From Pycnococcus provasolii (Eukaryota; Chlorophyta; Pseudoscourfieldiophyceae; Pseudoscourfieldiales; Pycnococcaceae): a stretch of 64,000 nucleotides of DNA. Positions within the stretch are counted from its first letter, which is position 1, and each line of letters starts with the position of its first letter. The notes beneath the pieces are model-generated. The model was not told the origin of the DNA and did no database searches. It saw nothing but the letters and a program-made list of their open reading frames with translations. The stretch is taken from NCBI GenBank assembly GCA_938743325.2, contig OW568863.1, forward strand, positions 992,001 through 1,056,000. Reading direction: 5' to 3'. Both the position numbers and the translations under genes were made by a program. This document shows, one piece after another, positions 21,051-44,034 of the stretch.

Positions 21051-21845
21051 CAGCCGAGGGGGGGTGGTCCCAGGAGGTGGACCGAGGCAGCCTGGGACAT
21101 CGGATCGCCACATTTGGCTCGACGCAGCCTGGGACATCTGATCGCCACATTTGGCTCGACGTTGATGCTGCGCGAATACCCCGCCAGCCTTCGAGAGAGC
21201 CGTTGCGCGAAAGGGTGTGCCAGCTTGCGAAAGCCCTGCCTGCAAAAGCCCTAGCCCGGCCTGCTTGCAAAGCCTCCTCGAGGGGGCTTTTTGTCGAGTA
21301 TTGCCGTATTGTATCGATAGCGATACGAGTATGCGGTATTGTATCGATACTGCAGTATCCGCCTCCATTGAAGCGCCCGCGGAGCGCGTAAAATATGCCG
21401 CCAGGTGCCACGGTGCTGTTCTCGTGCCGTGCGCGCGCTACACGCACCCTTGCCAGCTGCTAAATACGCACCGATAGTGCGTATTCTGGGCCATACAGTT
21501 CAATATCGGTTTGTATCGCAGGATACTATTGTGTTGTATTGGCCTATATCGGCGAGTATTGCAACTTCTTGTGAAGTCTTTGAGCTCACACGGAAGCCCT
21601 TGAACTTGTGCCAAGCAGCTCAGACAACTCGTACGTGCTCAAGAGCTCGCTAAACAGCTTTCCATCCGCTACAACCGTGTTCGTATTCCGGCACTATCGT
21701 GCGATATCGGCGTATTTATAGTGCTTTTTTGACGTCTACAGGCGACCTCGAGCCCTTTTAGCTTGTGCCAAGTACACCGAGGCAGCCTGCAGGTGTCCAG
21801 CAACACGCTAAAGAGAGCTTTACAGCTACAATTGCATAGGTGACG
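20384..21845. promoter_or_regulatory. Divergent upstream region of the two bZIP genes, palindrome core
   Basis: No independent gene is supported; the open frames here mirror each other. The sequence between about 20503 and 20935 (mirrored on the right) is dense in CGATA, AATAC and GATAC motifs, including two copies of TATCGATACAATAC (about 20878 and 20915). The unique centre is 21051-21178. Confidence 0.55.
21051..21178. repeat. Palindrome spacer with two 37 bp tandem repeats
   Basis: The 128 bp unpaired centre contains 37-base direct repeats at 21087-21123 and 21124-21160 (start GCAGCCTGGGACATC, end TTTGGCTCGAC) differing at one base. Such a spacer separates the two arms and may be what makes the palindrome clonable and stable. 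Confidence 0.85.
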
Positions 21846-22774
21846 ATGGACTCGGCCAGCGCAGCTCAGGTGGCTGCGATGGCGCAGGTTGCAGCTGCAT
21901 ATAGCCAGGAATCGGCCAGGGTAGCAAACGCCAACAACTGGCTGAATGCGCAGGTGGACAACGCCGTCACCGCAGCTGCCATGGCCGCGGCGGGTCTGCA
22001 AGGTATGGGAGACTTCAACAGTCTGATGGGCGCGGCCGCGGCCGGCTTGACTCCAGGAGCAGGTGGGGTTGCACCTCCTCCACCTCCACCGCCTCTTGCG
22101 GCCGGTGCAGGCGGCCTGAGCACTCTTCAGCTGTGCCACGCGAAGGCCCTGGCGCACAGGACGGTCTTGAAGCAGAACAAGCTACCTCTGGCGGGAACAA
22201 CGGAGGAGCTGATGAAAGCGGCGGGTGTGGAAGCGAACGGCTCGCACCGTCGACGCGCCGCGGCGAATGGCGTGAGCGACGAAGATCTCGCGATGGCGGA
22301 CCCGAAACGTGCGCGGCGCATTTTGGCGAACCGGCAGAGCGCGGCACGCAGCAAGGAGCGCAAGGTGGTGTACGTGAAAGAGCTCGAGGAGGAGGTTAGG
22401 CGTCTGGAGGCGGAGGCGGAATCTCTAAAGGCGCAGAAAAGTGCTGGTGCCGACAACGACGAGATCGCGAGAATGAAGGCGGAGCGCGACGTTCTGCTGG
22501 CTCAGAACGCTGCGTTGAATGAGAAGGCTGCGGACGCGCGTCGCGTCGAGCTTGAGTTGCGCCGGGACCTCGATCGTTATCGGACTTTGGCGGAAGGGGG
22601 TGACAGACCGAGGCCACCAGAGGCCTAGGTAGTAATCGCATGGTCGTGTGGTTGCCGACGAGCTTTTCGTTTTCTTTTCTTTTTTCTGCACGCGCACCAT
22701 CTGGTAACATACATATTATTTTGTGCCCCTTGGCGGTACCCTATTGTTCGTGCGGTACCCTACACTCTTGTTGG
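21179..22774. repeat. Right arm of 3.3 kb palindrome
   Basis: Reverse complement of 19455-21050. Identity stops at 22774, where GGAACTTAAG begins on the right and ...AGAG stands on the left. Confidence 0.92.
21846..22628 (+). CDS. Group I-type bZIP transcription factor, palindrome copy 2
   Basis: Encodes the same 260 residues as the copy at 19601-20383, with no amino-acid difference seen. The homology also covers about 146 bp beyond the stop codon, so the 3' ends are shared as well. Both copies are intact, which suggests a doubled dose of the factor or continuing gene conversion. Its partner and target genes cannot be read from the sequence. Confidence 0.9.
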   Translation: MDSASAAQVAAMAQVAAAYSQESARVANANNWLNAQVDNAVTAAAMAAAGLQGMGDFNSLMGAAAAGLTPGAGGVAPPPPPPPLAAGAGGLSTLQLCHAKALAHRTVLKQNKLPLAGTTEELMKAAGVEANGSHRRRAAANGVSDEDLAMADPKRARRILANRQSAARSKERKVVYVKELEEEVRRLEAEAESLKAQKSAGADNDEIARMKAERDVLLAQNAALNEKAADARRVELELRRDLDRYRTLAEGGDRPRPPEA

Positions 22775-27795: not shown

Positions 27796-30639
27796 ATGAA
27801 CTTCTTCCGCAACCGGCGCAAGTCCCATGGGAACGCGGGCCCTGGAGACGGGGATGGTCTCATGATGGCCTCGGACGGGTTCCTCCCGGCGAGCCCCGGA
27901 TCGCCCGGGGCGAACGCGTCGTCGAACGAGATCGGCATGCTCGCGTCGGCCGCGATCAGGGAAGTGGCAGAAAGCAACCAGGCGCCAAGTGCTGTCAACT
28001 GGGACGCAGTCAGCAGCCTCGTCGAGTGGACAAACGAACGAAACGGCGCGCCAGCAGCCGACGTGCTCGCGGAGATCAAGCCCGCTGTCAAGTCGCCAAG
28101 TCCCGCGCAGGCGCTCAGGGCACTCACCGTGCTCGACACCGTCGCTAGGTCCGTCGGCGCGAGTGCGTTTGCAGAGCTCGGAAGCCGCAAGTGGATCCAG
28201 AGGCTTGTTAAGCTCGCGTCGGGCGCATCCGACGGACGCGTGCGCGTCGCCGTGCAGCAGCTTCTCGCCGACTGGAGCGTAACATGTCCCAGGACGGGGT
28301 CTGGAAGCAGAGCGCCGTTCGAGAATGCGCTCTCCACGCTCGCAAGGTCGCACGCCATCATGCCGCCGGCGGGAAGCGACGGGAACGGGTGCGTGGGTGG
28401 CATCTTCGTAAGAGGCCGACAGTTTTCGTGGGATGTGCCAGCTGCCGCAGCCTCCGCCACGCCGCCGCGACCGCAGCAGCAGGTTCCGCCGCCGACGCAC
28501 TACACCCCGCCGCCCCCCGTGACGGCGGCGTACAACTCGCCCCCCATGATGGCGATGGGGATGCCCCCGCCCATGGCCACGCCGCAGCAGGCTATGCAGC
28601 CGGCGATGGCGGCGGCTCAGCAGCCGCTGTCTCCGTCCGAGCTCGTGTCGCGCATGCGTGGCGACCTCGACGACCTAGGGCGGGCGTGCAGCAAGATGCG
28701 CGAGAGTGCGTCGGATGTGCAGGCGGTGCAGCAGGTGGCTGAGCAGTCAGCCGGGACGTTCGAGCGGTGCCTGCGCTGGCAGGAGGGCGTCTCGTCTCTC
28801 CTCGAGCAGCCGCTCAGCGAGGGGGACCTCATGTCCGTGCTCGACATGAACGATCGGCTCAACACGCTCATCCCTCGTTGGCAGGCTCTGCTGTCGTCGT
28901 CGACGGGGGAGCACAGCGAGGAGAGCAGTGAGGGCGTAGCCAGCCGCCGTCTGACGGCGGACGACCTCATGGATAGCGACTTTGGCGCGACGGGTGGCGG
29001 CGCGGGGGTGCTGCCCCCGTCGTCGTCATCAGCCAGCGACGCGGCGGAACTCGAGGCGCTTCGTCGCGAGCTTGCCACCGCCAAGGCGACAGCCGCGGCG
29101 GAGCTCGCATCCGCGGCGGCGGCACATGCCGAGGAGGTGGCGAACGTCAAGAGCCTTGCGGTGAACAAGCTGAAGGAGCTGCAGAGGGAGAACGAGGAGC
29201 TGAGGACGGCTGCTGCTGGCGGTGGAGGTGGAGGAGGAGGCGGAGATGATGCGAGCCAAGCGGATGACGGCGCGGCGGAGAAGGTGGCGACGGCGGTGAA
29301 GGCGGCGGAGGTGGCGGAGATGCGTGCGGCAGAGCTCGAGGCTGAGGTGGCGCAGGGAGTCGCGTCGCTGAATGCGGCGCGAGGCGAGATGGAGGCTCTT
29401 CGCGTGAAAATGGCGGCGCTCGAGGCGGAGGCTTCGAACGTGATGGCGCTGAAATCTCGCGCCGAGGCTTCGGAAGCGGCGGCGAAGAGGATGGAGCTTG
29501 AGCTCAGGAAGGAGAGCGTGCTGCGCAAGAAGGCGTACAACCAGATTCGGGAGCTGCGCGGGAACATCCGCGTCGTCGCGCGCGTGAGGCCAGCCACCGC
29601 CGGTTCCAGCGAGCACGTTCAGTCGGCTGGCGAAGGTAGGTCTTGCACCGTGTCCGACGAATACACGTGCCAGCTGCTGCACGACGACGCACGCGGCGAC
29701 TCGCAGATGCGGCGCTACGAGTTTGACGCCTGCTTGCCCGAGGGCACGACGCAGGAGCAGGTGTACGACGAGGTTGGCGACGTGGTGCAGAGCGCCCTCG
29801 ACGGATACAAGGTTTGCGTGTTTGCGTACGGGCAGACGGGCAGCGGCAAGACGCACACGATGGTGGGCAGCGACGACACGCCAGGCTTGCTGCCACGCTG
29901 CGCGCGGCAGATGTTTGCCGGCGGCGACTCGAAGGGCAACGTGACGGTGAGGTGCCAGATTCTCGAGCTCTACCAGGACAACTTGGTTGACCTGCTGCAC
30001 AGCGGCAGCAAGGGATCGGCGTTGACGATTCGCCGCGACGCCTCGACTGGCAACGTGTCGGTTGAAAATGCCGAGACGGTGACGTCCACGGACGCCGACG
30101 CACTGTTGGACGTGTGCAAGAAGGCGTTTTCGAGAAGGGCCACCGCGTCGACGAAGATGAACGTCGAGTCGAGCCGAAGCCACCTGATGCTGATGTTTTC
30201 CACGGAGCACGTCGCCGACAACACGGGTGCCATTTCCAAGGGCAAGCTCACGCTGGTGGACTTGGCGGGAAGCGAGCGCGTGAAGAAGAGCGGCGCGGAG
30301 GGCAAGCTGCTGGACGAGGCGAAGGCGATCAACCAGAGCCTGAGCGCGCTCGGCGACGTCGTGAGCGCGTTGACGAAGGGCGAGAAGCACATCCCCTACA
30401 GGAACTCGAGGCTGACGCAGCTGATGAGCGATAGTCTGGGTGGGCAGGCGAAGACGCTGATGATTGTGAACGTGAGCCCGCTTGGCGAGGACAGCTCGGA
30501 GACGAAAAACAGCCTGGACTATGCCAGCCGAGTGAAGCTGGTGACGAACGACGCTTCTAAGAGCATTGAGACGAAAACTGTCCTGGCTTTGAAGAAGGAG
30601 GTGGATGAGCTGAAGAAGAAGCTTCTTTCGAGTAAGTAG
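27796..30639 (+). CDS. VHS-GAT-kinesin-14 fusion motor
   Basis: One uninterrupted frame of 947 residues. Residues ~40-185 form a VHS domain (ALRALTVLDTVARSVGAS, then RKWIQRLVKLASG and QQLLADWS). Residues ~275-370 form a GAT three-helix bundle (LVSRMRGDLDDLG, LMSVLDMNDRLNTLIPRWQ). About 410-580 is coiled coil with a poly-Gly break. From ~585 there is a C-terminal kinesin motor: neck ELRGNIRVVARVRP typical of minus-end-directed kinesin-14, P-loop GQTGSGKTHT, switch I ESSRSH, switch II LVDLAGSE. VHS-GAT is the ubiquitin- and endosome-binding module of TOM1/TOL/GGA proteins. A role in moving ubiquitinated endosomal cargo toward microtubule minus ends is inference. ATG 27796 follows a GTG in the same frame. 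Confidence 0.88.
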   Translation: MNFFRNRRKSHGNAGPGDGDGLMMASDGFLPASPGSPGANASSNEIGMLASAAIREVAESNQAPSAVNWDAVSSLVEWTNERNGAPAADVLAEIKPAVKSPSPAQALRALTVLDTVARSVGASAFAELGSRKWIQRLVKLASGASDGRVRVAVQQLLADWSVTCPRTGSGSRAPFENALSTLARSHAIMPPAGSDGNGCVGGIFVRGRQFSWDVPAAAASATPPRPQQQVPPPTHYTPPPPVTAAYNSPPMMAMGMPPPMATPQQAMQPAMAAAQQPLSPSELVSRMRGDLDDLGRACSKMRESASDVQAVQQVAEQSAGTFERCLRWQEGVSSLLEQPLSEGDLMSVLDMNDRLNTLIPRWQALLSSSTGEHSEESSEGVASRRLTADDLMDSDFGATGGGAGVLPPSSSSASDAAELEALRRELATAKATAAAELASAAAAHAEEVANVKSLAVNKLKELQRENEELRTAAAGGGGGGGGGDDASQADDGAAEKVATAVKAAEVAEMRAAELEAEVAQGVASLNAARGEMEALRVKMAALEAEASNVMALKSRAEASEAAAKRMELELRKESVLRKKAYNQIRELRGNIRVVARVRPATAGSSEHVQSAGEGRSCTVSDEYTCQLLHDDARGDSQMRRYEFDACLPEGTTQEQVYDEVGDVVQSALDGYKVCVFAYGQTGSGKTHTMVGSDDTPGLLPRCARQMFAGGDSKGNVTVRCQILELYQDNLVDLLHSGSKGSALTIRRDASTGNVSVENAETVTSTDADALLDVCKKAFSRRATASTKMNVESSRSHLMLMFSTEHVADNTGAISKGKLTLVDLAGSERVKKSGAEGKLLDEAKAINQSLSALGDVVSALTKGEKHIPYRNSRLTQLMSDSLGGQAKTLMIVNVSPLGEDSSETKNSLDYASRVKLVTNDASKSIETKTVLALKKEVDELKKKLLSSK

Positions 30640-32017: not shown

Positions 32018-32103
32018 CAGAGAGGGCAATGGCGGCGGACTTTGCAATGAGAGAGAAGAAGAAGGAGGAGAAGAACGAGGGAACTGGGAGTTCTGGTTCT
32101 GGG

Positions 32104-32129
32104 GGTTAGGGTTAGGGTTAGGGTTAGGA
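32104..32129. repeat. Telomere-like TTAGGG tract upstream of RPC5
   Basis: Four clean GGGTTA units, about 90 bp upstream of the RPC5 start codon on the minus strand. Confidence 0.75.
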
Positions 32130-32166: not shown

Positions 32167-33042
32167 TTATGCCTTTTTCTGCGTCCTCCGCTTCGCCCGG
32201 AACTTGATGTAACCTGTGACGATGCCGTGCGCCCACTGCCAGCTCACGCTTATCGTAATAAATACCATGAGGTACACGAATGTGCAGAACGGCTGAGGAC
32301 TGATGAAAGAGAGAGGAACGTCGCCGCCCGTGCGCAAGTTGTAACGCGTGTACCACACGTAGATGTGGCGCAGCGTGAAACCTGGCGCGTAGAAGACGCG
32401 GCAAAGCACGTATAGCAAGGTGTAAGGCAAGCTCAGTGACTCGTACAGCCGCTTGAGATCCCTGGAGGTTGCCAGCGCGGCGTCGGTCCGTTTTTCGGAC
32501 AGCTTTTTCGAAGCGATGCGCGCAAACTCCCAAGGAAGCTGCAGCGGGTTTGTCAGCTCTCCAAAAAGAATGGCGTTCACTGTCAACCACTGAGTCGTCG
32601 AAAGCAACCGCGTCGTCGCGATCGTGCCCAAGCTGCCGACATGGTGGCAGTAGTAAAGCCAGTTGGGCTCGAACGTCGCCATGAACGCAAAGTCGTACAG
32701 AAAGTAGCCAAACGCAACGTCGTGCGTGAGCATGGAAAGCGGCGTCACGTCAATGCTCATCAGCGACCACCCTTGCTTAAAACCCGCCTCGAAGTACACG
32801 AGCGCGCCCAGGGTGACAACGATCACGGCGTGCGTGAACGCGGCGACGCGGTTCGTGAACTGGATGCGTAGAAGCTTGGAGTGAAGCCGCTCGAGCTTGG
32901 AAGCGAACGGGAGGAAGTAGGCTATGGCTGTGACGGCGGTGAAGAAGACGAACGATAGTATGGAGTTGTTGAGAAGGGAGGAGAAAGGCGGAGAGGCGGG
33001 GTCGGTGGAGAAGAGACGGAGAAAAGAGTAGTCGGCGGCCAT
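32167..33042 (-). CDS. TLC-domain (TRAM-LAG1-CLN8) membrane protein
   Basis: This 291-residue protein has about six or seven hydrophobic helices and the TLC pattern: LHSKLLRIQFTNRVAAFTHA, a HDVAFGYFLYDFAFM helix, WLYYCHHVGSLG with the conserved His pair, and a basic lysine-rich C-terminal tail. TLC proteins include ceramide synthases and lipid-trafficking proteins of the ER. The Lag1 motif of true ceramide synthases is not clear, so the lipid role is open. ATG 33042 in caccATGG context is well supported. The first third of the gene and its promoter lie in an inverted duplication, and a truncated copy is at 40436. Confidence 0.85.
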   Translation of the reverse strand: MAADYSFLRLFSTDPASPPFSSLLNNSILSFVFFTAVTAIAYFLPFASKLERLHSKLLRIQFTNRVAAFTHAVIVVTLGALVYFEAGFKQGWSLMSIDVTPLSMLTHDVAFGYFLYDFAFMATFEPNWLYYCHHVGSLGTIATTRLLSTTQWLTVNAILFGELTNPLQLPWEFARIASKKLSEKRTDAALATSRDLKRLYESLSLPYTLLYVLCRVFYAPGFTLRHIYVWYTRYNLRTGGDVPLSFISPQPFCTFVYLMVFITISVSWQWAHGIVTGYIKFRAKRRTQKKA

Positions 33043-33214
33043 GGTGGTGAGGATGTTTTTTTTTGTGGATGATCTATATCTTCTCGGTGACTCGGTGTGC
33101 TTGTGTTGCCAGTGGTGGTGTGGTGGTGTGGTGGTTGGTGTGTTTGGTTGCTTGCCACCGTAAGTACTGCACAAAATCTTTTCTGTACAATGTCACTATG
33201 CGTTTAGGGGTTAC

Positions 33215-33350
33215 GGCTCTGTGGCTCAATGGTAGAGCAATTGATTCCAGAAATTTCCTGAAAACAACTCCCTGCGAAATGAAAATTTCGCGGAAAAATT
33301 TTCGAGTGCGACAACTCAATAGGTTGTGGGTTCGATTCCTGCCAGGGTCT
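33215..33350 (+). tRNA. tRNA-Trp (CCA) with 64-nt intron, copy 1
   Basis: A full cloverleaf can be drawn: acceptor GGCTCTG/CAGGGTC (two G-U pairs), D-arm GCTC/GAGC, anticodon stem ATTGA/TCAAT, T-arm GTGGG/CCTGC with loop TTCGATT. The anticodon CCA is at 33247-33249. An intron at 33251-33314 follows position 37, the canonical place for nuclear tRNA introns. A nine-T Pol III terminator lies downstream at 33414-33422. CCA is not encoded. Confidence 0.93.
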
Positions 33351-33413
33351 TGTTCGAAATAAATGCAAATTTCGATCAACCTAACTTCGACGTCTTAACG
33401 ACGTACTGGCGTC

Positions 33414-33422
33414 TTTTTTTTT
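33414..33422 (+). terminator. Pol III oligo-T terminator of tRNA-Trp copy 1
   Basis: A T9 run 64 bases after the tRNA 3' end, the first T run of four or more downstream. Mirrored at 40056-40064. Confidence 0.6.
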
Positions 33423-33947
33423 GCTTACAGTTACCACCATTCGCCCGGACGAGTGCGTCGGAGGACACTCAGGATAGCGACAAAGCACGGCGTACTATGG
33501 TAGTTAGTACCCCGAAACGTGCGTCTATTTCGAACGTGGTATGTGGTTTTCCTCAAGGACGGACCAGTTGTTTAAAAATTTCCGTTCAAAAATCGGTATT
33601 TTGGGATCCGCCGCGAAGTGAACTGTCTTAGAGCTACGACCAAATAAATGGGTGGATTTCGCCCCGCGCGCCGTAGTAAGTTTAGGTTGTGCGAAAAACC
33701 GCTCAGCCCCCAACCTCCGACTAGAGAAAAAGACTCCTTGGACAGGTCCCTTGCTGCCTTGCACACCGGCCGGTGTTGCATCGCGCTGATTAAGGTGGTC
33801 AAGAGCCCGAACGCGGACCTGAAAGCTCTTGCAAGCTCTTGCCAGCTCGCGGCCGGTGTGCAAGGGGGGTCTTTTTTTTACTGGCCGGAGTTTGGTATTT
33901 GGTAGGCCTTGGACCGGACCATCCACGTTCACGTGAGACACCTTGTC

Positions 33948-35561
33948 ATGCAGCCCGGCGACGTCGCGCGCAAGCTCTTCGCGCAAATCGACCTTAACGG
34001 CGACGGCGTGCTCTCGGCTCAGGAGACGCGCGCGTATTTGGAACGCAACGGCGAAGAAGAGCTCGGGAACGCCATCTTCGCGCAGCTCGACGTCGACGGA
34101 GACGGCATCGTCACGCTCGAAGAGTTTCTGCAAGGGTTCGGCAAAATGAGAAACAAGCTCGCGAAAGTAGTTGACAATAGTTCACCAGTGTTTCGCGCAG
34201 TGTCGCTAGAGTGGCTCGAGCAGCTCGTGCAAGATAACGCAGGGACGACGCACAGCTGGGAGGTGAGCAAGGAGTTCATGAATGAGGAGGATGGCGGTGG
34301 TCAGGACGGGACGTTGACTGTGACGCCTGAGAATCTCGAAATGCACCGCACAAAGCGACGCACCGCTGAGAAAGCAAAGAGCGGTAAGCCTGTGCCCGTG
34401 ACATATCGTGAGATACCTTTCGAGCACATGTACACGACGGACATCGTCGAGTGCTTCGTGCGCTCGCTCGCACGGACAGAGCACAAGAGTTACGCGCAAG
34501 CGAAGAACCTACCTGTCGGCACGCCGACGTACTTCATATCGCACGCTTGGAGTAGCCGGTTTGTGGACCTTGTGGAAAGCGTGACTTCTGCACTTGCGGG
34601 TGCTGCGAAGAACGATACGTTCGTTTGGCTTGACATATTCGCCATCAACCAGGACGATACGGGCGGAGTATTTTCAGCCATGGCTGAGCTCGACGACGGC
34701 CGCACGCTCGCTGGTACGATAGCGACGTCTCGCGCAACACTCGTCGTGCTGGATAAAGATCGCGTCATTCCGTTGACGAGGTTGTGGTGCCTGTACGAGA
34801 TCGGGTCGACACCACCGCAGAAGCTGCAGCTCGTGACGCACGGCTTCTCAGAAAAGGACGTGTCGCAACACATTCGCAGCATCGACGCGGAGACGGCGCT
34901 GTGCTTTTCGCCCGCGGACAAGGAGATGATTCACGGCGAAATCACGGGCGAATGTTTTGAGCGGCGCCACTCACTAGCCCATTTTTACTTGGTGGTCGTA
35001 AATTTCGACGGGTTTATTGCAGCGTTTTTCATTCATCATACAATCAGTTTACAAGAGAACAAAACGTCACTCCCCCGACTACATAGTGCTTCGTACATCC
35101 CACACGCGAACGGTCTTGTCGTCGCTCGCGGAGACGATGCGCGTCCCATCCGCGGAATACGATGCGGATCTCACCCGATCGGAATGGCCTTCCAGCACAG
35201 ATATGCACGCGCCGGTCGTCGCGTCCCACACGCGAACGGTGTTGTCCGAGCTCGCGGAGACGATGCGCGTACCATCCGCGGAATACGAGGCGGATGTCAC
35301 CCCATCGGAATGGCCTTCCAGCACAGATATACACGCGCCGGTCGTCGCGTCCCACACGCGAACCGTTTCGTCCCAGCTCGCGGAGACGATGCGCGTACCA
35401 TCCGCGCTATACGAGGCGGAAGTCACAGGACCAGAATGGCCTTCCAGCACGGATATACACGCGCCGGTCGTCGCGTCCCACACGCGAGCGGTCTTGTCGT
35501 AGCTCGCGGAGACGATGCGCGTACCATCCGCGGAATACGAGGCGGAAGTCACAGAATCTGA
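33948..35561 (+). pseudogene. Truncated EF-hand/TIR-like receptor copy
   Basis: From the ATG at 33948 to 34949 this equals the first 334 codons of the intact receptor gene (39530 leftward). It holds two EF-hand-like loops (DLNGDGVLSAQE, DVDGDGIVTLEE) and the TIR-like block (TPTYFISHAW..WLDIFAINQD..LWCLYEI). Identity ends at 34949. The frame then runs through the 3' flank and antisense to the WD40 repeats of the intact gene, stopping at 35561, so the last ~200 residues are probably meaningless. The break falls just after the TIR-like domain, so a short EF-TIR protein could still be made. It may equally be a dead fragment. Both copies share the same promoter sequence. Confidence 0.8.
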
Positions 35562-38528
35562 ATGGCCTTTCAGCACAGATATGCACGCGCCGGTAGTCGC
35601 GTGCCACACGCGAACAGTCTTGTCCTCGCTCGCGGAGACGATGCGCGTACCATCCGCGGAATACGAGGCGGACGTCACCCTATTAGAATGGCCTTCCAGC
35701 ACAGATAGACAAGCGCCGGTCGTCGCGTCCCACACGCGAGCGGTGTTATCGTAGCTCGCGGAGACGATGTGCGTACCATCTGCGGAATACGATGCCGAAG
35801 TCACAGGACCAGAATGGCCTTCCAGCACAGACAGACACGCGCCTGTCGTCGCGTCCCATACGCGAACGGTCTCGTCCATGCTCGCGGAGACGATGCGCGT
35901 ACCATCCGCGGAATACGATGCGGAAGACACCACAGAAGAATGGCCTTCCAGCACAGATATGCACGCACCGGTCGTCGCGTCCCACACGCGAATGCTCTTG
36001 TCCTCGCTCGCGGAGACGATGCGCGTACCATCTGCCGAATACGAGGCGGAATTCACCCTATTAGAATGGCCTTCCAGCACAGATATGCACGCGCCGGTAG
36101 TCGCGTCCCACACGCGAACGGTCCTGTCGTCGCTCGCGGAGACGATGTGCGTACCATCCGCGGAATACGATGCGGAAGTCACCGCATCAGAATGGCCTTC
36201 CAGCACAGATATGCACGCGCCGGTAGTCGCGTCCCACACGCGAACGCTCTTGTCCTCGCTCGCGGAGACGATGCGCGTACCATCCGCGGAATACGATGCC
36301 GAAGTCACCCTATTAGAATGGCCTTCCAGCACAGATATGCACGCGCCGGTCGTCGCGTCCCACACGCGAACGGTGTTGTCCTCGCTCGCGGAGACGATGT
36401 GCGTACCATCCGCGGAATACGAGGCGGAAAGCACCCAATGAGAATGGCCTTCCAGCACAGATAGACACGCATCGGTCGTCGCGTCCCACACGCGAATCGT
36501 TTCGTCCTCGCTCGCGGAGACGATGCGCGTCCCATCCGCGCTATACGAGGCGGAATTCACCCATCCAGAATGACCATCCAGCACAGATATACACGCGCCG
36601 GTCGTCGCGTCCCAGACGCGAACGGTATTGTCCCGGCTCGCGGAGACGATGCGCGTCCCATCCGCGGAATACGAGGCGGATAACACAGGACGAGAATGGC
36701 CTTCCAACACAGATATACACGCGCCGGTCGTCGCGTCCCAGATGCGAACGGTATTGTCCTCGCTCGCGGAGACGATGCGTGTCCCATCCGCGGAATACGA
36801 GGCGGAAGACACCACAGAAGAATGGCCATTCATGTTGTTCAATATCGTAGCATCAATATCCACGCGAGCAGGTATGCAAAGGCTCGGCGGACACGATGAC
36901 ATTTCCCTCTTTCCTGGACTCTGATACCATGCACTCGTACACGGCACATTCGCCGCAATCACTCCAGCCTGCGAATACGTCCCAACTCCCCACCGAAGCA
37001 CGCGAATAAAGGCATGCAGCGATTCTACAGTCGCCACCAACCCAGTAGCATAATCTGCCAACTTTTCCTTCGCATCCAAAAGCGCCTTCTCGAGGCGCAG
37101 CAATTCCACCACGAGCACGCCTCTTCGACCTGCATCTATCTGACGCTTCAACCACAGACCCGCAAACTCTGTCGCACACCAACGTGACGCCTTGTACCCC
37201 TCAGGAATCATCGCCTCCTTTTGACGCTCCACCATGAACGCGGCATGCCACTCCTTCATGACATTTGTCGTCAATGTCTCATCCCCACCATACAGCATCT
37301 TCTCAACCGCTTCGGTCAAGTGCACGTGTGCATATCGCAAGGAATACGCCACAGCCGGCCCCTTCTCGTCGTCACCACGTTTCAGAACTTCCAGGCACGA
37401 TCGCGTCAGCTCACCATGTCCACGAGACACGTTAGCTGCGTGCTCGCCTGATCGCTTCGTATCTCCCAAAAACTCACGCAGCGACAAGTGCAACGTCTGC
37501 AGCAGGTGATCGCGCTCCTCGAACAGAAGTCCCCAACCAGGTAGGCGCTTGCACGTCTCTCGCAAACGCAAACGATCAATATGCACCGACGAGAGAGGTT
37601 CACGCGAAGCGAGTACAATGTCAATCAGCCTACGAACTTCCTCGTCATCCTTCGCTGCGCGATCAAACCAAAGCTTATACGCGGCATCAATATCCGCAGG
37701 TGGCTCCACGCTTGTGCCGTATCGCTTGACAAACTCGCGAGCAACAATCTGGTACACCTTTATGCTCTGCATGTTGCGCATCGCCTCTTCCCAGGGTCCT
37801 AGAAGGCGACTCTCCTCCTTTTCCACTTCCACCGCCACTGTCGCCGATCCCAAAACATGTGCAGGCTCCATCACGCGCATGCCACCCTCCCAATCGTGCT
37901 TCAGCACGCGTCGACGAGGATAGTCACCATCTGCATCTGGGCGCGTCGTCACAAGTACAGAAACACTCGAGCGCACATCACGAGCGAGATGCCGGAGCAA
38001 CCCAATCGCAGCATTGGAGATGTGCCGGTCATCGTCCGCCTCGTCGAGCGCATCCAGCAAAATCACCGCATGCTTCTGCGATTCAATCAGCTTCTTCAGC
38101 GGTTTCACCAAAAGCGCATTCACCGCAACATCCGGGTCGACGAGCGCCTTTGCCGCGGTATCTTCCTCCAGATCAATCAGGCATTCGCGAACGACGTCAA
38201 AGCGTTGACCAAGCTGAAAGCCAAGCGACCTCACCATCTCGAGCACGTCCTGGCGCCTGACGTCCGCACGTTTGCAGAAGTGAGCCGCGTGAACCATGTC
38301 GAGGGCTGCCGAGGCCACACTCGACTTGCCCTCTCCTGGTCCGCCAACAATGCATGCAAGACGTCCACCAGTCGACGTCACATGTGCACGCAGATCCTCC
38401 AACTGGTACTCGTTGCTCTGTCCACGTTCTCGCAACGCCTGCAAATCCGACTCGTAGCTCATCGGACGGAGCATAAAACGCAGCTTGAGCTCCTCCGTGA
38501 AGTGCTTCATGCTCGCAAACCCAAACTT
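34950..38528. repeat. Core flanked by the inverted arms (potentially invertible segment)
   Basis: This 3579 bp unique core carries the NACHT and WD40 parts and the 3' flank of the receptor gene. Because both arms end at the same codon of the gene, inversion of this core by arm-to-arm recombination would join it in frame to the left arm copy and leave the right copy truncated. Only the present orientation can be seen here. Confidence 0.7.
35079..36840. repeat. 14 tandem 126-bp WD40-coding repeats
   Basis: The units are nearly identical in DNA. Consensus residues SASYSADGT and RVWDATTGAC barely change, whereas the two residues after GHS, the residue after the next V, and the residues around SAS-x-D-x differ from unit to unit. 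Confidence 0.92.
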
Positions 38529-39530
38529 GCCCGTGATTTCGCCGTGAATCATCTCCTTGTCCGCGGGCGAAAAGCACAGCGCCGTCTCCGCGTCGATGCT
38601 GCGAATGTGTTGCGACACGTCCTTTTCTGAGAAGCCGTGCGTCACGAGCTGCAGCTTCTGCGGTGGTGTCGACCCGATCTCGTACAGGCACCACAACCTC
38701 GTCAACGGAATGACGCGATCTTTATCCAGCACGACGAGTGTTGCGCGAGACGTCGCTATCGTACCAGCGAGCGTGCGGCCGTCGTCGAGCTCAGCCATGG
38801 CTGAAAATACTCCGCCCGTATCGTCCTGGTTGATGGCGAATATGTCAAGCCAAACGAACGTATCGTTCTTCGCAGCACCCGCAAGTGCAGAAGTCACGCT
38901 TTCCACAAGGTCCACAAACCGGCTACTCCAAGCGTGCGATATGAAGTACGTCGGCGTGCCGACAGGTAGGTTCTTCGCTTGCGCGTAACTCTTGTGCTCT
39001 GTCCGTGCGAGCGAGCGCACGAAGCACTCGACGATGTCCGTCGTGTACATGTGCTCGAAAGGTATCTCACGATATGTCACGGGCACAGGCTTACCGCTCT
39101 TTGCTTTCTCAGCGGTGCGTCGCTTTGTGCGGTGCATTTCGAGATTCTCAGGCGTCACAGTCAACGTCCCGTCCTGACCACCGCCATCCTCCTCATTCAT
39201 GAACTCCTTGCTCACCTCCCAGCTGTGCGTCGTCCCTGCGTTATCTTGCACGAGCTGCTCGAGCCACTCTAGCGACACTGCGCGAAACACTGGTGAACTA
39301 TTGTCAACTACTTTCGCGAGCTTGTTTCTCATTTTGCCGAACCCTTGCAGAAACTCTTCGAGCGTGACGATGCCGTCTCCGTCGACGTCGAGCTGCGCGA
39401 AGATGGCGTTCCCGAGCTCTTCTTCGCCGTTGCGTTCCAAATACGCGCGCGTCTCCTGAGCCGAGAGCACGCCGTCGCCGTTAAGGTCGATTTGCGCGAA
39501 GAGCTTGCGCGCGACGTCGCCGGGCTGCAT
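35079..39530 (-). CDS. NLR-like receptor: EF-hands, TIR-like, NACHT, 14 WD40 repeats
   Basis: This 1483-residue protein begins MQPGDVARKLFAQ (ATG 39530; the longer frame begins with TTG). It has two EF-hands at ~7-65, then a TIR-like block at ~180-300 (TPTYFISHAW, WLDIFAINQD, LWCLYEI). The NACHT NTPase has Walker A GGPGEGKSS at ~396-404 and Walker B HAVILLDALDEAD at ~488-500. A helical linker follows, then 14 WD40 repeats of 42 residues from ~900 to the end. This is the layout of STAND signal-transducing NTPases: a repeat sensor, a nucleotide switch and an effector head. By analogy with fungal HNWD/HET-E proteins a role in recognition of non-self is plausible, but unproven. The 5' quarter lies in the right arm of the inverted duplication. 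Confidence 0.9.
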   Translation of the reverse strand: MQPGDVARKLFAQIDLNGDGVLSAQETRAYLERNGEEELGNAIFAQLDVDGDGIVTLEEFLQGFGKMRNKLAKVVDNSSPVFRAVSLEWLEQLVQDNAGTTHSWEVSKEFMNEEDGGGQDGTLTVTPENLEMHRTKRRTAEKAKSGKPVPVTYREIPFEHMYTTDIVECFVRSLARTEHKSYAQAKNLPVGTPTYFISHAWSSRFVDLVESVTSALAGAAKNDTFVWLDIFAINQDDTGGVFSAMAELDDGRTLAGTIATSRATLVVLDKDRVIPLTRLWCLYEIGSTPPQKLQLVTHGFSEKDVSQHIRSIDAETALCFSPADKEMIHGEITGKFGFASMKHFTEELKLRFMLRPMSYESDLQALRERGQSNEYQLEDLRAHVTSTGGRLACIVGGPGEGKSSVASAALDMVHAAHFCKRADVRRQDVLEMVRSLGFQLGQRFDVVRECLIDLEEDTAAKALVDPDVAVNALLVKPLKKLIESQKHAVILLDALDEADDDRHISNAAIGLLRHLARDVRSSVSVLVTTRPDADGDYPRRRVLKHDWEGGMRVMEPAHVLGSATVAVEVEKEESRLLGPWEEAMRNMQSIKVYQIVAREFVKRYGTSVEPPADIDAAYKLWFDRAAKDDEEVRRLIDIVLASREPLSSVHIDRLRLRETCKRLPGWGLLFEERDHLLQTLHLSLREFLGDTKRSGEHAANVSRGHGELTRSCLEVLKRGDDEKGPAVAYSLRYAHVHLTEAVEKMLYGGDETLTTNVMKEWHAAFMVERQKEAMIPEGYKASRWCATEFAGLWLKRQIDAGRRGVLVVELLRLEKALLDAKEKLADYATGLVATVESLHAFIRVLRWGVGTYSQAGVIAANVPCTSAWYQSPGKREMSSCPPSLCIPARVDIDATILNNMNGHSSVVSSASYSADGTRIVSASEDNTVRIWDATTGACISVLEGHSRPVLSASYSADGTRIVSASRDNTVRVWDATTGACISVLDGHSGWVNSASYSADGTRIVSASEDETIRVWDATTDACLSVLEGHSHWVLSASYSADGTHIVSASEDNTVRVWDATTGACISVLEGHSNRVTSASYSADGTRIVSASEDKSVRVWDATTGACISVLEGHSDAVTSASYSADGTHIVSASDDRTVRVWDATTGACISVLEGHSNRVNSASYSADGTRIVSASEDKSIRVWDATTGACISVLEGHSSVVSSASYSADGTRIVSASMDETVRVWDATTGACLSVLEGHSGPVTSASYSADGTHIVSASYDNTARVWDATTGACLSVLEGHSNRVTSASYSADGTRIVSASEDKTVRVWHATTGACISVLKGHSDSVTSASYSADGTRIVSASYDKTARVWDATTGACISVLEGHSGPVTSASYSADGTRIVSASWDETVRVWDATTGACISVLEGHSDGVTSASYSADGTRIVSASSDNTVRVWDATTGACISVLEGHSDRVRSASYSADGTRIVSASDDKTVRVWDVRSTM

Positions 39531-40055
39531 GACAAGGTGTCTCACGTGAACGTGGATGGTCCGGTCCAAGGCCTACCAAATACCAAACTCCGGCCAGTAA
39601 AAAAAAGACCCCCCTTGCACACCGGCCGCGAGCTGGCAAGAGCTTGCAAGAGCTTTCAGGTCCGCGTTCGGGCTCTTGACCACCTTAATCAGCGCGATGC
39701 AACACCGGCCGGTGTGCAAGGCAGCAAGGGACCTGTCCAAGGAGTCTTTTTCTCTAGTCGGAGGTTGGGGGCTGAGCGGTTTTTCGCACAACCTAAACTT
39801 ACTACGGCGCGCGGGGCGAAATCCACCCATTTATTTGGTCGTAGCTCTAAGACAGTTCACTTCGCGGCGGATCCCAAAATACCGATTTTTGAACGGAAAT
39901 TTTTAAACAACTGGTCCGTCCTTGAGGAAAACCACATACCACGTTCGAAATAGACGCACGTTTCGGGGTACTAACTACCATAGTACGCCGTGCTTTGTCG
40001 CTATCCTGAGTGTCCTCCGACGCACTCGTCCGGGCGAATGGTGGTAACTGTAAGC

Positions 40056-40064
40056 AAAAAAAAA
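40056..40064 (-). terminator. Pol III oligo-T terminator of tRNA-Trp copy 2
   Basis: An A9 run on the plus strand (T9 on the transcribed strand), mirror of 33414-33422. Confidence 0.6.
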
Positions 40065-40127
40065 GACGCCAGTACGTCGTTAAGACGTCGAAGTTAGGTT
40101 GATCGAAATTTGCATTTATTTCGAACA

Positions 40128-40263
40128 AGACCCTGGCAGGAATCGAACCCACAACCTATTGAGTTGTCGCACTCGAAAATTTTTCCGCGAAATTTTCATT
40201 TCGCAGGGAGTTGTTTTCAGGAAATTTCTGGAATCAATTGCTCTACCATTGAGCCACAGAGCC
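40128..40263 (-). tRNA. tRNA-Trp (CCA) with 64-nt intron, copy 2
   Basis: The exact inverted counterpart of 33215-33350, including the intron and the anticodon CCA at 40231-40229. Both copies keep all stems, so both should be functional. Confidence 0.93.
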
Positions 40264-40435
40264 GTAACCCCTAAACGCATAGTGACATTGTACAGAAAAG
40301 ATTTTGTGCAGTACTTACGGTGGCAAGCAACCAAACACACCAACCACCACACCACCACACCACCACTGGCAACACAAGCACACCGAGTCACCGAGAAGAT
40401 ATAGATCATCCACAAAAAAAAACATCCTCACCACC

Positions 40436-40690
40436 ATGGCCGCCGACTACTCTTTTCTCCGTCTCTTCTCCACCGACCCCGCCTCTCCGCCTTTCTCCTC
40501 CCTTCTCAACAACTCCATACTATCGTTCGTCTTCTTCACCGCCGTCACAGCCATAGCCTACTTCCTCCCGTTCGCTTCCAAGCTCGAGCGGCTTCACTCC
40601 AAGCTTCTACGCATCCAGTTCACGAACCGCGTCGCCGCGTTCACGCACGCCGTGATCGTCGTCACCGTGACCGAAACCGTAGCAAGGTAA
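40436..40690 (+). pseudogene. Truncated 5' copy of the TLC-domain gene
   Basis: Starts with the same caccATGG context and the same first ~77 residues as the TLC gene at 33042. Homology breaks at 40666, and the frame stops at 40690 after VTETVAR. Only about the first two hydrophobic helices remain, so a working TLC protein is not expected. Confidence 0.88.
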
Positions 40691-41535
40691 AGAGTAAAGA
40701 CTAAAGAAACCAAAAGCGGCCGCTAACCTTAAGAGGCCTTAAGCTATGCCACACTTCAGAGCTGGTATCAACTTCAGAAGAAATCGCCGCGCGTTGAAGT
40801 AAGTGTGCCACCGCAGTGTTTGGTATAAACCTAATCTGAAAATCTCACAACCATCAACGTCGACCCTTTTTCCTCGTGTAATAGACAGCCACTCTTTACG
40901 TTGCTACTACTTAAGGACGTTCTTACTTAAGGTCACTAGCCGTTGTCCTGAGACGGTCAGACGGTGGGGCAACTGGAGGAGTTCAGCTGAGGTACGCCGT
41001 CACAGAAACTGTGGACACAGTCATACAGTGACCTCTACGCGTCTCTTCTGGACATCCAGGGCATTTCACGCCTTGGGTGCCTGGGTTACCTCTGTAACCA
41101 GACCACTTTCTTTCATTCTAACCTGTGCCCACTTTCCCACAGTAGACTGCGGCGACAAAACTCAAAAGCACAGGATGCCCCGCTCAGCGCCTGAGCGCGG
41201 CAGAGGATGAAAGGAAGGAGCCCGCCCGCCCAATTGCCCAAAGGAACAAAGGAAGGAGGGTAAGAACCCTACTTGCCGCCTGATTAGGGTAGTCTAGGAA
41301 GTAAGGGGGAAACCCCTGTTAGGGTAGAGCTTGTTAGGGTGCATCTTGTTTTTTGTTTGCCCCTAAACCTTTACCCGGGTGCCCGCGGGGGGGGGGGGGG
41401 GGGGGGGGGGACCTGGGGGGGGGGGGGTAAAAAGAGAAGAGTCCGAGGATGAATGAAGTTTGACGTTGTTTGACCCGGCAGCCGCGTCTGTCTCCATTCT
41501 CTCTCCCTCTCTGCTCGCAGAAGCTGTCACCCACC
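40691..41535. other. Spacer upstream of the ankyrin gene
   Basis: No gene supported. It contains several TTAAGG sites, degenerate TTAGGG-like units at 41284-41340, and long G runs (24 G at 41387-41410 and 13 G at 41415-41427) about 110-150 bp upstream of the ankyrin start codon. The 135-codon frame at 40803-41210 has no recognisable content. Confidence 0.5.
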
Positions 41536-44034
41536 ATGCCTCCAAAGAAGCCGGCTGGCTCCAAAGCGTCGTCGTCAGGTATGTCGTCGATGTGGGCGAA
41601 GGCGAAAACCGCCGCGGCCATGTCATCTGCAGTTGGTGGAGCTTCTTCTTCTTCTTCATCGAAAAAAGCTCCTGGACCTGCTGCCCTTAATAATAAGGGC
41701 AAAAGCCCAGCGGCCGCTTCCTCCTCAGCAGCCACCTCCTTGCCACCTGCTCAGTACCACCCGCTCTCGCAAGGAAAAGGCCCCACCGAATCCCTCTCGA
41801 ATATGGACCCGCTCGAACGCGCAGTCATGTCCATACTTGCCATAAATCCCGTGGGACTTTCCTTAAACGCGTTCGACAACGACTTCACGCAACGACTTCG
41901 CAAGTTCAACGAGGCGGTGCACGACGCAGTCAGGAACTCCACTTCACAACTAGATGCCAAAATGCTCAAGGTGAAGACGCGCACAGAAAAGAAGGAAAAC
42001 GAAGCCAAGGCGGTGGCGAGGCCCGTGCTCGCACTGAGAAAGACCCAGCAGAAACTCCTCGCGATGAGAAACTACAGCGACGCATGGGATCAGATGAAGG
42101 AGATACGGAGGGCGGAGAAAGATGCTGTCGCGGCGTATCGCGCGCAGGCACGCCCGGAGATGGAGGCGGAGCTGAATGCCGTCCAAGATGAGCGCGAGGT
42201 GGTGGAGGTGCAGCTGAAAGCGCGGATAAACACCGCGGAGGAACGCATACGCGCGTTCCGTCAGGAGTGCATCACGCAGATTCACCTCGACCATGGCTTG
42301 CCACCACCACCACCACCACCACAACGACAACAACAACAACAACCACAGCAGCGGCCACAACCACAACCACCACGACCACAGCCACTCCAACCACCACCTC
42401 CACAACATCCACAACAATCAGGATCCGCCGACGACCCGAATTCGCCACCCATTGAAATCATTCCATCACCCGAATTCCACGTTCCAAATTCCGTTGCGTA
42501 CTATCCGCAGGCGCACTATCACGCACCACAAGCTCCTCACCACCACACCGCCGTAGGCAGTGCTGTCGCAAGCATGATGATGCACACACCTCCAGCGCTG
42601 CTCTCGCGACCGCTCGTGCCGGAGGCGGCTGCTCACGTGGATCCCACGGTCCCTCCACCCGCTCTCTTCCAAACGACGCCAGCGCCGTACACTGGCACGT
42701 TCGCAGGCCAAGTTCCCATGCGCCCTCTTCCACCCGCCTGGCAGCCTAACGCCTCCTCCTCAATGCCAATGGCATCTCCTTGGATTGGGAACAGCGGCAT
42801 GAATAACAACGTGCAAAGTGCGGCAGAGGCGCTCATGTCAGCTGCAAGCATGTTGCTCGGCCGCACGACGCCATTCCCTTCATCGTACGCGCCCATTTCG
42901 CCGGCGCCAACCCCAGCTTCATCGCAGGGTGTTTACAACGCGCGTGCGGCGAGAGCCGCGTCCACCACGCCGGCACCGCCATCCGCGCTCAAGCAGCACT
43001 CCGCACCTGCACCAGCTCCCGCCACAGCAGTAGCAGCAGCAGCACCCTCCTCATCCTCACCAAGCAAGGCTGCCGGAAGGGGATCCGCCTTCGCTCACAA
43101 TAGCTCGGACAGCGACTTTGACGAGGACGATGTGCCACTCACAACGCCGACGAGAACGTCGACGAAACCGAGCAATCGTGACGACGTTCCTGGCATCACG
43201 CTATCTAATCTCCCCAAGCCAAACATATCGGCAGCAGATCGCAAGCGCGATGCGGCGCAGAAGGAGGATGGCGCCAAGGCTGGATGGAGTCGAGCAGGAA
43301 ACTTTGTGCGCAGCCAGGCGATGCCCGCGTTGCGGTCGCTGAATGCCGCGGCGAAGGATGCGCGCGATCGTCGCGATCTCGAGGACAGCGATCGGGCACA
43401 ACCTGAGAATGGACCTACGGAGAAGCAGCGTGCAGCGGCAAAGCTGCTTATGGGTGCCGCGGGAAAGGCGGGAGCTGCGCCTTCGGCAGCAGGAGGAGGA
43501 GGAGGAGGAGGCGGGAGACTTGCCGCAGCACTCAGCCGCGCTCGCGCGCAGAAGCCTGAGACGCTCCCAGAAGCTCCCACCGCGAATAACAACTCCGCCG
43601 CTACAAACTCCTCCTCTTCGTTCTCTGGCGTCGTGGCAGCACAAAAGGCTGCCCAAAAACTTCGATCAGATGCGGCGAAAAAACGCCTCTTCACCACGGA
43701 GGATTTCAAGCAACTGTTCAGCAACTGCCGACACGGAAGAAAGGAGGCTGTTGTGAAGCTGCTCGAAAATGGATGCCCGGTGGATGGGCGAGACTCCTTC
43801 GGGAATACGCCGCTTATTGTCGCGTGCCAGAATGGCCAGGCGAGAATTGTCAAGGCTTGCTTGCGCCACAACGCAAATCCGGATGCTCAGAACAAGCAGG
43901 GGAATACCGCTTTGCATTACTGTGTGGCGTACGGCTTCTCCGCCCTTGGAGATTACCTCATATCCAAGGGTGCAAGGGACGACATTAAAAATCGCGCTGG
44001 ATTAACACCATACGAAGGCATAGGCTTTAAGTAG
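41536..44034 (+). CDS. Ankyrin-repeat protein with N-terminal helical domain
   Basis: This 832-residue protein starts MPPKKPAGSKASS in a caccATGCC context. Residues ~90-260 are a long charged helical region (LRKFNEAVHDAVRNST, LRKTQQKLLAMRNYSDAWDQ) suggesting a BAR-like or coiled-coil bundle. A long disordered Pro/Gln/His and Ala/Ser-rich middle follows. The last ~110 residues form three ankyrin repeats (DSFGNTPLIVACQNGQARIV, NKQGNTALHYCVAYGF, KNRAGLTPYE). A helical bundle plus ankyrin repeats recalls ACAP/ASAP membrane proteins, but no ArfGAP or PH motif is present, so only a scaffold role can be suggested. A GA microsatellite directly follows the stop codon. Confidence 0.75.
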   Translation: MPPKKPAGSKASSSGMSSMWAKAKTAAAMSSAVGGASSSSSSKKAPGPAALNNKGKSPAAASSSAATSLPPAQYHPLSQGKGPTESLSNMDPLERAVMSILAINPVGLSLNAFDNDFTQRLRKFNEAVHDAVRNSTSQLDAKMLKVKTRTEKKENEAKAVARPVLALRKTQQKLLAMRNYSDAWDQMKEIRRAEKDAVAAYRAQARPEMEAELNAVQDEREVVEVQLKARINTAEERIRAFRQECITQIHLDHGLPPPPPPPQRQQQQQPQQRPQPQPPRPQPLQPPPPQHPQQSGSADDPNSPPIEIIPSPEFHVPNSVAYYPQAHYHAPQAPHHHTAVGSAVASMMMHTPPALLSRPLVPEAAAHVDPTVPPPALFQTTPAPYTGTFAGQVPMRPLPPAWQPNASSSMPMASPWIGNSGMNNNVQSAAEALMSAASMLLGRTTPFPSSYAPISPAPTPASSQGVYNARAARAASTTPAPPSALKQHSAPAPAPATAVAAAAPSSSSPSKAAGRGSAFAHNSSDSDFDEDDVPLTTPTRTSTKPSNRDDVPGITLSNLPKPNISAADRKRDAAQKEDGAKAGWSRAGNFVRSQAMPALRSLNAAAKDARDRRDLEDSDRAQPENGPTEKQRAAAKLLMGAAGKAGAAPSAAGGGGGGGGRLAAALSRARAQKPETLPEAPTANNNSAATNSSSSFSGVVAAQKAAQKLRSDAAKKRLFTTEDFKQLFSNCRHGRKEAVVKLLENGCPVDGRDSFGNTPLIVACQNGQARIVKACLRHNANPDAQNKQGNTALHYCVAYGFSALGDYLISKGARDDIKNRAGLTPYEGIGFK

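Follow-up and report, generated by a model that had tools for sequence, protein, structure and literature searches.

The window analysed here is a stretch of 64,000 bases on chromosome 3 of Pycnococcus provasolii CCAP190/2 (C3:992001-1056000), and the element under study is a receptor gene on its minus strand. An earlier preliminary description, made from the letters of the window, had assigned the DNA to a green alga; P. provasolii indeed belongs to the Chlorophyta. The coding frame stays open upstream of its first ATG to a TTG at 39569, from which the residues of the open reading frame are numbered here. A relative from another public assembly, P0001, begins at the Met equivalent to that of the window gene. 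The encoded protein carries, in order, two EF-hands, a divergent TIR-like domain, a STAND/NLR nucleotide-binding module and fourteen WD40 units, located as follows (all on the minus strand).

35079..39530, minus strand: whole receptor coding sequence, first ATG at 39530, stop at 35079, no intron needed
39330..39524, minus strand: EF-hand pair, residues 16-80 (Pfam EF-hand_5, E 5.3e-11; EF-hand_7, E 1.8e-9)
38475..38957, minus strand: divergent TIR-like domain, residues 205-365, PTYFISHAW...WLDIFAINQ...RLWCLYE
38679..38681, minus strand: codon of Glu297, within WCLYE, a candidate for the catalytic Glu of TIR
37425..38462, minus strand: STAND/NLR nucleotide-binding module, residues 370-715, with Pfam NPHP3_N at 400-543
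38322..38345, minus strand: Walker A motif GGPGEGKS, residues 409-416, nearly invariant columns in alignment A1
38037..38069, minus strand: Walker B region ILLDALDEADD, about residues 501-511, with D506, D509 and E510 invariant in A1
37320..37643, minus strand: possible winged-helix region, TANC1-like, residues 643-750 (Pfam HTH_TANC1, E 5.7e-4, under the curated cut-off)
35082..36827, minus strand: WD40 array, 14 units of 42 residues with the last one shorter, hypervariable codons 4, 5, 7, 23 and 25

The translated frame confirmed the 14 near-identical 42-residue units described earlier, and the residue pairs that follow GHS in successive units (SV, RP, GW, HW, NR, DA, NR, SV, GP, NR, DS, GP, DG and DR) matched exactly. 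Tandem Repeats Finder described the array as 13.7 copies of a 126-base period with 87% matches. The window gene combines these C-terminal repeats, as expected of a STAND/NLR receptor, with a P-loop NTPase that has Walker A and Walker B motifs of the NACHT/NB-ARC type. When an AlphaFold model of the core was compared with known structures using VIA-align, the matches included NRC1, Apaf-1, NLRC4 and NLRP3. The window gene is one member of an intracellular STAND/NLR-type receptor family.

The members of this family were sought in the genome (46 contigs, 32,333,900 bases) with the head of the protein, and 50 of 83 candidates were scored, so that copy counts are lower bounds. At least 12 near-full copies were found, 11 of them open and one frameshifted. 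These lie on C3 (the window), C44, C33, C6, C32, C23 (twice), C21, C7, C41, C12 and C30; the other 11 copies are 79-93% identical to the window gene, and the copy on C33 loses its frame inside the first WD40 unit. The NPHP3_N profile gave 16 hits in the genome: 12 are the receptor copies, two are partial copies lying inverted on C23, and the last two belong to neither group. Scans with two short patterns each were also made of virus contigs, where none of the 20 stretches found was a relative by tblastn, and of prokaryote genomes, where none of the 95 stretches was a relative.

Variation among the WD40 units was analysed in 121 of 138 units from 10 paralogs, keeping only exact 42-residue units; C30, C33, length variants and the short last units were excluded. 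Positions 4, 5, 7, 23 and 25 reached entropies of 2.91, 3.39, 2.37, 3.44 and 2.23 bits, respectively. No other position exceeded 1.5 bits, the remaining 37 lying at or below 1.49 bits. These five positions hold 62.6% of the nonsynonymous differences. They are likewise the top five in variability, with 68% of the nonsynonymous differences, when the 13 full units of the window gene are taken by themselves. They are the five most variable positions in seven of the 10 paralogs, while four of the five lead in C12 and one C23 copy (C23b) and three in the other (C23a); among more distant relatives, all five lead in P0012 and four of the five in P0020. The ratio of nonsynonymous to synonymous nucleotide diversity (piN/piS) across the pooled units was 1.80 at the five positions against 0.34 at the other 37, with gene-bootstrap intervals (500 resamples) of 1.61-2.13 and 0.29-0.38. 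With piN at the five positions set over the synonymous diversity of the core, the ratio was 3.2-4.5. For the heads of the same 10 copies (C33 being left out of the alignment and C30 out of the counts) the corresponding ratio of differences (pN/pS) was 0.19-0.40 by region. Variation is thus concentrated at five loop sites of each blade, where nonsynonymous changes are in excess, with purifying selection on the rest, and the earlier statement that the units vary at fixed positions holds.

A single-sequence model of the WD40 part, of which only the local strand pattern was used, places positions 4 and 5 before strand a, position 7 at the start of a, and positions 23 and 25 between strands b and c. 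In the other two loops (positions 12-16 and 32-36) entropy does not exceed 0.52 bits, and V6 and D24, whose codons lie between the variable ones, stay fixed. The preliminary description had put the variable sites on the ligand face of the blade; their location in the d-a and b-c loops stands in the model, and the ligand-reading surface itself we infer.

The units are exchanged both within and between genes. Over the 111 core nucleotides of a unit the mean difference was 8.73 between genes and 8.03 within genes, and the nearest unit belonged to another gene for 82 of the 121 units and to the same gene for 39. As the latter figure exceeds the approximately one in ten expected if the gene made no difference, exchange acts most strongly inside a gene but also reaches other genes. 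The copies on C32 and C21, which are different contigs, have unrelated flanks, and in steps of 150 bases the DNA of their heads is 87-97% identical. In a stretch that starts 318 nucleotides ahead of the array and runs almost to its end, the identity is 95-100% per step; the array core is 99.1% identical and 12 of the 14 five-residue codes (the residues at the five variable positions of a unit) agree. Judging by this pattern, the shared stretch of about 2 kb is an array tract transferred between chromosomes. Unit 11 differs between the two copies in one short patch, SAR in C32 and GPS in C21, and since GPS is also the start of the code of unit 12, conversion between adjacent units is the simplest reading. 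The copy on C41 has a two-code block repeated. Heads recombine too, as the foreign protein P0010 matches the window protein exactly for its first 180 residues and is divergent beyond them. The exchange within and between genes and the C32-C21 transfer thus agree with the concerted evolution, of the kind known from fungal HNWD, that had been suggested from the window.

For comparison between organisms, proteins from other public assemblies labelled P. provasolii or Pseudoscourfieldia marina were paired with the receptors of this genome by head identity. Six of 13 foreign proteins could be paired; the arrays of P0005 and P0008 were truncated and P0009-P0013 had no clearly closer partner. For each pair, the head identity and the number of identical codes at the same place in the array were as follows.

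Window gene and P0001: 91.4%, 0/14
C44 and P0003: 93.1%, 0/14
C6 and P0002: 96.1%, 0/13
C7 and P0004: 95.7%, 0/14
C41 and P0007: 95.0%, 0/14
C12 and P0006: 97.0%, 1/12

Only one of 81 same-place codes was therefore identical. Identity at the five sites was 0.10-0.27 in the six pairs against an all-against-all baseline of 0.14-0.29, and a shuffled unit order scored as high or higher in 876 to 1731 of 2000 trials, with no pair above chance. When codes were pooled (leaving out P0005, P0008 and P0011-P0013), 114 occurred in 138 own units and 107 in 111 foreign units, of which four were shared; 1.8 were expected, with at most 7 in 500 random draws. The variable residues have thus been completely renewed between head-matched relatives. 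The window pair is also supported by position, as P0035, a 93% relative of the protein of the neighbour gene at 41470-44034, lies on a contig of 1,272,376 bases, a size equal to that of the contig carrying P0001.

The number of units is far more stable than their content. Using a hidden Markov model of the unit, 14 units were counted in nine of the 11 open copies of this genome, with 12 in C12 and 15 fragments in the diverged C30. Among 33 foreign proteins, 13 had 14 units (P0001, P0003, P0004, P0006, P0007, P0009, P0010, P0012, P0013, P0020, P0023, P0024 and P0027, the last three with weakly scoring units), P0002 and P0032 had 13, and P0011 and P0025 had 15 fragments. A further 11 proteins, truncated or poorly scoring, had between one and 10 units and five had none. 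The repeat-number polymorphism anticipated in the preliminary description was accordingly not found among the paralogs and assemblies compared, which are not a population; the number is nearly fixed at 14 and it is the unit content that differs.

The closest functional analogue is the HNWD/NWD family of Podospora anserina (HET-D, HET-E and HET-R), in which a STAND core is likewise followed by highly uniform WD40 units that are exchanged within and between genes. Strong positive selection has been described there at codons 7, 9, 25 and 27, pairs placed around conserved 8 and 26 at the top of the propeller (PMC1805685, Paoletti et al.). The algal positions 5, 7, 23 and 25 around V6 and D24 have identical spacing and lie in the same d-a and b-c loops. 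In a second register the HNWD sites are listed as 10, 11, 12, 14, 30, 32 and 39 (PMC12222747), and the algal positions plus seven give 11, 12, 14, 30 and 32. It should be noted that the registers were matched by spacing and by the description of flanking sites, the HNWD sequence itself not being aligned. The parallel with HNWD/HET-E drawn earlier thus extends to uniform units, selected d-a and b-c loop sites and concerted evolution. There are differences as well. HNWD has been modelled with a total of 14 blades in two propellers, 11 uniform and three cryptic, whereas all 14 are uniform in most algal copies; its length polymorphism, which has been described, is nearly absent from the alga; its effector head is a HET domain, whereas that of the alga is TIR-like; and it has a demonstrated role in cell fusion.

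The best solved relative, both by sequence (E 5.5e-129) and by Foldseek, is WRAP (Npun_R6612) of Nostoc punctiforme (PDB 2YMU). It has 14 near-identical blades forming two seven-bladed propellers, a unit count shared by the alga, and these belong to a STAND ATPase that is linked to a TIR-STAND partner (PMC5587647, PMC9218822). In the aligned sequence of 2ymu only the site equivalent to algal position 7 visibly varies (R, W or N), the other four being almost constant. Proteins of the same architecture class as the Pycnococcus receptor are found in other algae: 58 of 61 NB genes of Chondrus crispus carry WD40 repeats and 23 of those 58 carry TIR (PMC7145615), and NACHT-WD40 proteins have been reported in Chlamydomonas (PMC4773052). 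In the consulted parts of these two papers neither array turnover nor a combination of uniform units and hypervariable sites is mentioned. Plant TIR-NLRs such as RPP1 also place a TIR-like head before an NLR core. They differ from the algal receptor in having an NB-ARC core and a leucine-rich repeat sensor. From fungi and bacteria, WD40 units that are uniform but diversified at hotspot sites have been described (PMC4986451, PMC5587647). Among the matches listed from the open-licence literature, none dealt with receptors of this kind in Pycnococcus or Pseudoscourfieldia, which is not proof of absence. As far as that literature shows, four things are new: the green-algal family, the fixed unit count combined with full turnover, the TIR-like and lipid/EF-hand heads, and the array transfer caught between C32 and C21.

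The head of the receptor was less easily named. The region of residues 205-365 (PTYFISHAW...VWLDIFAINQ...PLTRLWCLYEIGS) we call a divergent TIR-like domain on several grounds. A profile of it aligned by hhalign with a TIR_2 profile from the same genome (18 hits, 13 fetched and 12 aligned) at E 5.7e-7 and 92% probability, over 75 columns with 23% identity, and the WCxxE-type Glu of TIR_2 paired with the receptor Glu. Glu297 is invariant in 33 of 33 sequences of alignment A1. When a profile of nine TIR-like domains was compared with PDB, the sole chain under E 0.05 was the TIR protein 3h16, at a borderline E of 0.0093; in this HMMER alignment the receptor Glu falls two residues off the nearest Glu of 3h16, which counts against its assignment as the TIR Glu. 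VIA-align paired the head with RPP1 from model residue 202/203 onward, with a poor root mean square deviation (rmsd) of 12-13. The structural search with the head listed mainly NLR cores and AAA+ ATPases and barely probed the TIR region. Pfam, NCBIfam and PADLOC scans gave no named TIR or defence family for the head, the NCBIfam matches all being under cut-off with an EF-hand similarity on top, and the TIR and TIR_2 profile searches of the genome matched other genes and not the receptor head. No HET domain was called by Pfam at the N-terminus at E 1, where the head consists of EF-hands or an MGC start plus the TIR-like domain. The TIR-like head of the preliminary description consequently survives through profile alignment, weak structural overlap and the invariant Glu, and not through Pfam; of the NACHT and TIR calls expected from profile searches, the first fell under cut-off and the second was not made. 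A catalytic role of the TIR Glu (E75) has been described (PMC7075850), and NADase output from the algal head is put forward tentatively, its chances being judged slightly below even.

As regards the extreme N-terminus, the EF-hand region of the window copy matched calcium-binding protein and calmodulin chains in PDB. The EF-hands reported earlier are thus present in the window gene, but are atypical of the family, as 10 of the 12 copies begin MGC(A/G)(A/S)S, with EF-hands in their place only in the window copy and C44. The MGCxxS start is presumably a motif for N-myristoylation plus palmitoylation. Two other loci, L033 and L035, encode a similar head, 41% and 43% identical across the EF-hands and the TIR-like domain, followed by near-identical TPR-like units of approximately 42 residues by eye; they may represent a sister class of receptors whose uniform repeat is of another type. 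On C44 (34983-39197) TIR-like and Pfam TIR_2 matches lie on the same strand in apparently one frame of 2099 amino acids, so that a single protein may contain both as distinct modules.

It is probable that the window gene encodes a fast-diversifying recognition receptor which works like HNWD with another effector head and a fixed sensor size. This agrees with the fast-evolving recognition receptor of the preliminary description, the recognition role being one that we infer from evolution and architecture. STAND proteins are closed monomers that open on ligand binding, exchange nucleotide and oligomerise, and TIR domains then act by proximity. In the receptor, the 14 blades would fold into two propellers of seven blades each, and the loops on the same side of these would present a ligand-reading surface. 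Binding of a ligand would release the nucleotide-binding module, which would oligomerise and bring the TIR-like heads together; the gathered heads might consume or convert NAD+ or signal otherwise, leading to defence or cell death. The N-terminal modules, MGCxxS in most copies and EF-hands in the window copy and C44, would place the receptor. New specificities would arise by mutation at the five codons, by patch conversion between units and by transfer of whole arrays between genes, and the need for two closed propellers would hold the unit count at 14. The pattern suggests a sensor that follows a changing partner, and a pathogen or other non-self protein is a more likely ligand than a stable host partner.

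Several points weigh against this reading of a diversifying receptor. The Pfam NACHT model itself scores under cut-off on the window protein, and the Pfam TIR family is absent for the whole protein at E 1 and for nine domain sequences at E 10. The piN/piS values are descriptive and not a formal selection test, because the pooled units exchange sequence and are not alleles. The WD40 model has a predicted template modelling score (pTM) of 0.50 and overlays on the two-propeller chain 2ymu with an rmsd of 29; it was rejected as proof of two propellers, and the grounds for proposing that arrangement are 2ymu and the number of units. HNWD sites 10 and 39 are not hypervariable in the alga, and arrays of 12 and 13 units do occur. 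Apart from the window pair, the head-matched pairs rest on head similarity alone, and as the organisms have diverged (P0035 being 93% identical) the turnover is not necessarily rapid on an absolute time scale.

The same data could also come from neutral concerted evolution, in which a recently amplified WD40 scaffold is homogenised by unequal exchange and its loops are free to vary. Near-identical WD40 arrays can be recent amplifications, as in Nostoc WRAP (PMC9218822), the algal units are homogenised across the family, and the diversity ratios come from pooled units. Relaxed loops, however, predict a piN/piS of about 1 and not the values above it that were obtained by either measure, nor do they account for the quiet loops on the opposite side or for a number held at 14, and this explanation is regarded as improbable. 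Targeted hypermutation of the five codons, driven by a retroelement or deaminase, is less credible still and would come as a considerable surprise. In bacteria, sensors of this kind are targets of diversity-generating retroelements (PMC10907252), and 10 of 24 unit pairs with no or one core difference differ at three to five variable codons; three or four different bases occur at the first and second positions of these codons. Yet the intervening codons V6 and D24 are fixed, the third base of codon 4 is T in 109 of 121 units, and 10 of 13 unit pairs with identical cores share identical codes, which fits copying plus selection, several of these pairs probably stemming from the C32-C21 transfer. 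The least credible explanation, one that we give almost no weight, is an assembly artefact with collapsed or chimeric repeats: tandem near-identical units and inverted arms of such high identity (see below) are hard to assemble, but ucPycProv1.2 is a HiFi assembly with 444-fold coverage and a quality value of 58.2 (PMC11130579), and proteins from other assemblies show the same pattern and mostly the same unit number.

Two further possibilities retain the machinery and alter its use, and each is considered unlikely. The ligand might be a variable conspecific protein, as in allorecognition or mating-type recognition, given that HNWD reads HET-C alleles in fungal fusion cells (PMC12222747). A dozen parallel receptors, on the other hand, would exceed the need of one polymorphic partner. 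Somatic cell fusion is also not known from this single-celled alga, no search aimed at it having been made, and for these two reasons a pathogen is favoured over a conspecific. Alternatively, there may be standing diversification, in which fixed-size arrays are continually rewritten, both by single units and by whole arrays, through conversion among the dozen genes and the WD40-RING frame on C25 (see below), so quickly that clones or isolates differ; if true, unicellular plankton would possess a repertoire of anticipatory receptors on the level of the population or even of the culture. A diversifying receptor of the HNWD kind remains the preferred reading. It would place a recognition system equivalent to HNWD position by position in a unicellular prasinophyte green alga, so that the design would not be tied to hyphal fusion, and would combine such a sensor with a TIR-like head, a pairing reminiscent of the immunity of plants and bacteria. 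It also suggests that diversification can proceed at nearly constant array size, and it offers a case in which the ability of plankton to keep pace with viruses or other partners can be tested.

Relatives of parts of the receptor occur elsewhere in the genome. A frame of 419 amino acids on C25 (L050, C25:215600-218000) has seven WD40 units of the same family, a charged stretch and, by eye, a RING-like zinc finger, and could possibly be one propeller on a ubiquitin ligase that shares the sensor blades. Seven loci (L025-L031, on C5, C31, C4, C3, C15, C13 and C2) share approximately 2.3-2.5 kb of DNA, 98.6-99.5% identical, with a broken receptor head; this repeat resembles a mobile element that has captured part of a receptor.

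Within the window, the 3' half of the receptor gene is flanked by an inverted repeat with 2.15-kb arms, 99.8% identical by blastn, a feature absent from the preliminary description.

38523..40669, no strand: right arm, with the 5' part of the gene, its upstream region and a cut-off copy of the 5' end of the neighbour gene
32809..34957, no strand: left arm, with the EF-hand and TIR-like head only, 349 residues, cut before the nucleotide-binding module

The two receptor copies on C23 have the same inverted arrangement, with arms 99.2% and 99.8% identical. The repeat was considered as a switch or as a donor store for sensor units and was rejected as the origin of sensor diversity, as none of the three partial copies (one in the window and two on C23) has its own WD40 array in the DNA examined.

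The window holds a second inverted duplication at 19455-21050 and 21179-22774, 1.6 kb long and 99.9% identical, with a 128-base spacer. TTAGGG-type telomere-like repeats lie inside chromosomes, at 32103-32128 and in many other places of the genome; a telomere-like 18-mer matched 2695 times forward and 2629 times in reverse (overlaps counted), against one and two matches for a reversed control. A stretch of a kinesin-like gene at 29716-30553 is approximately 90% identical at the DNA level to 61442-62291, and a direct repeat of approximately 0.56 kb lies at 46295-47950, its copies being 97-98% identical.

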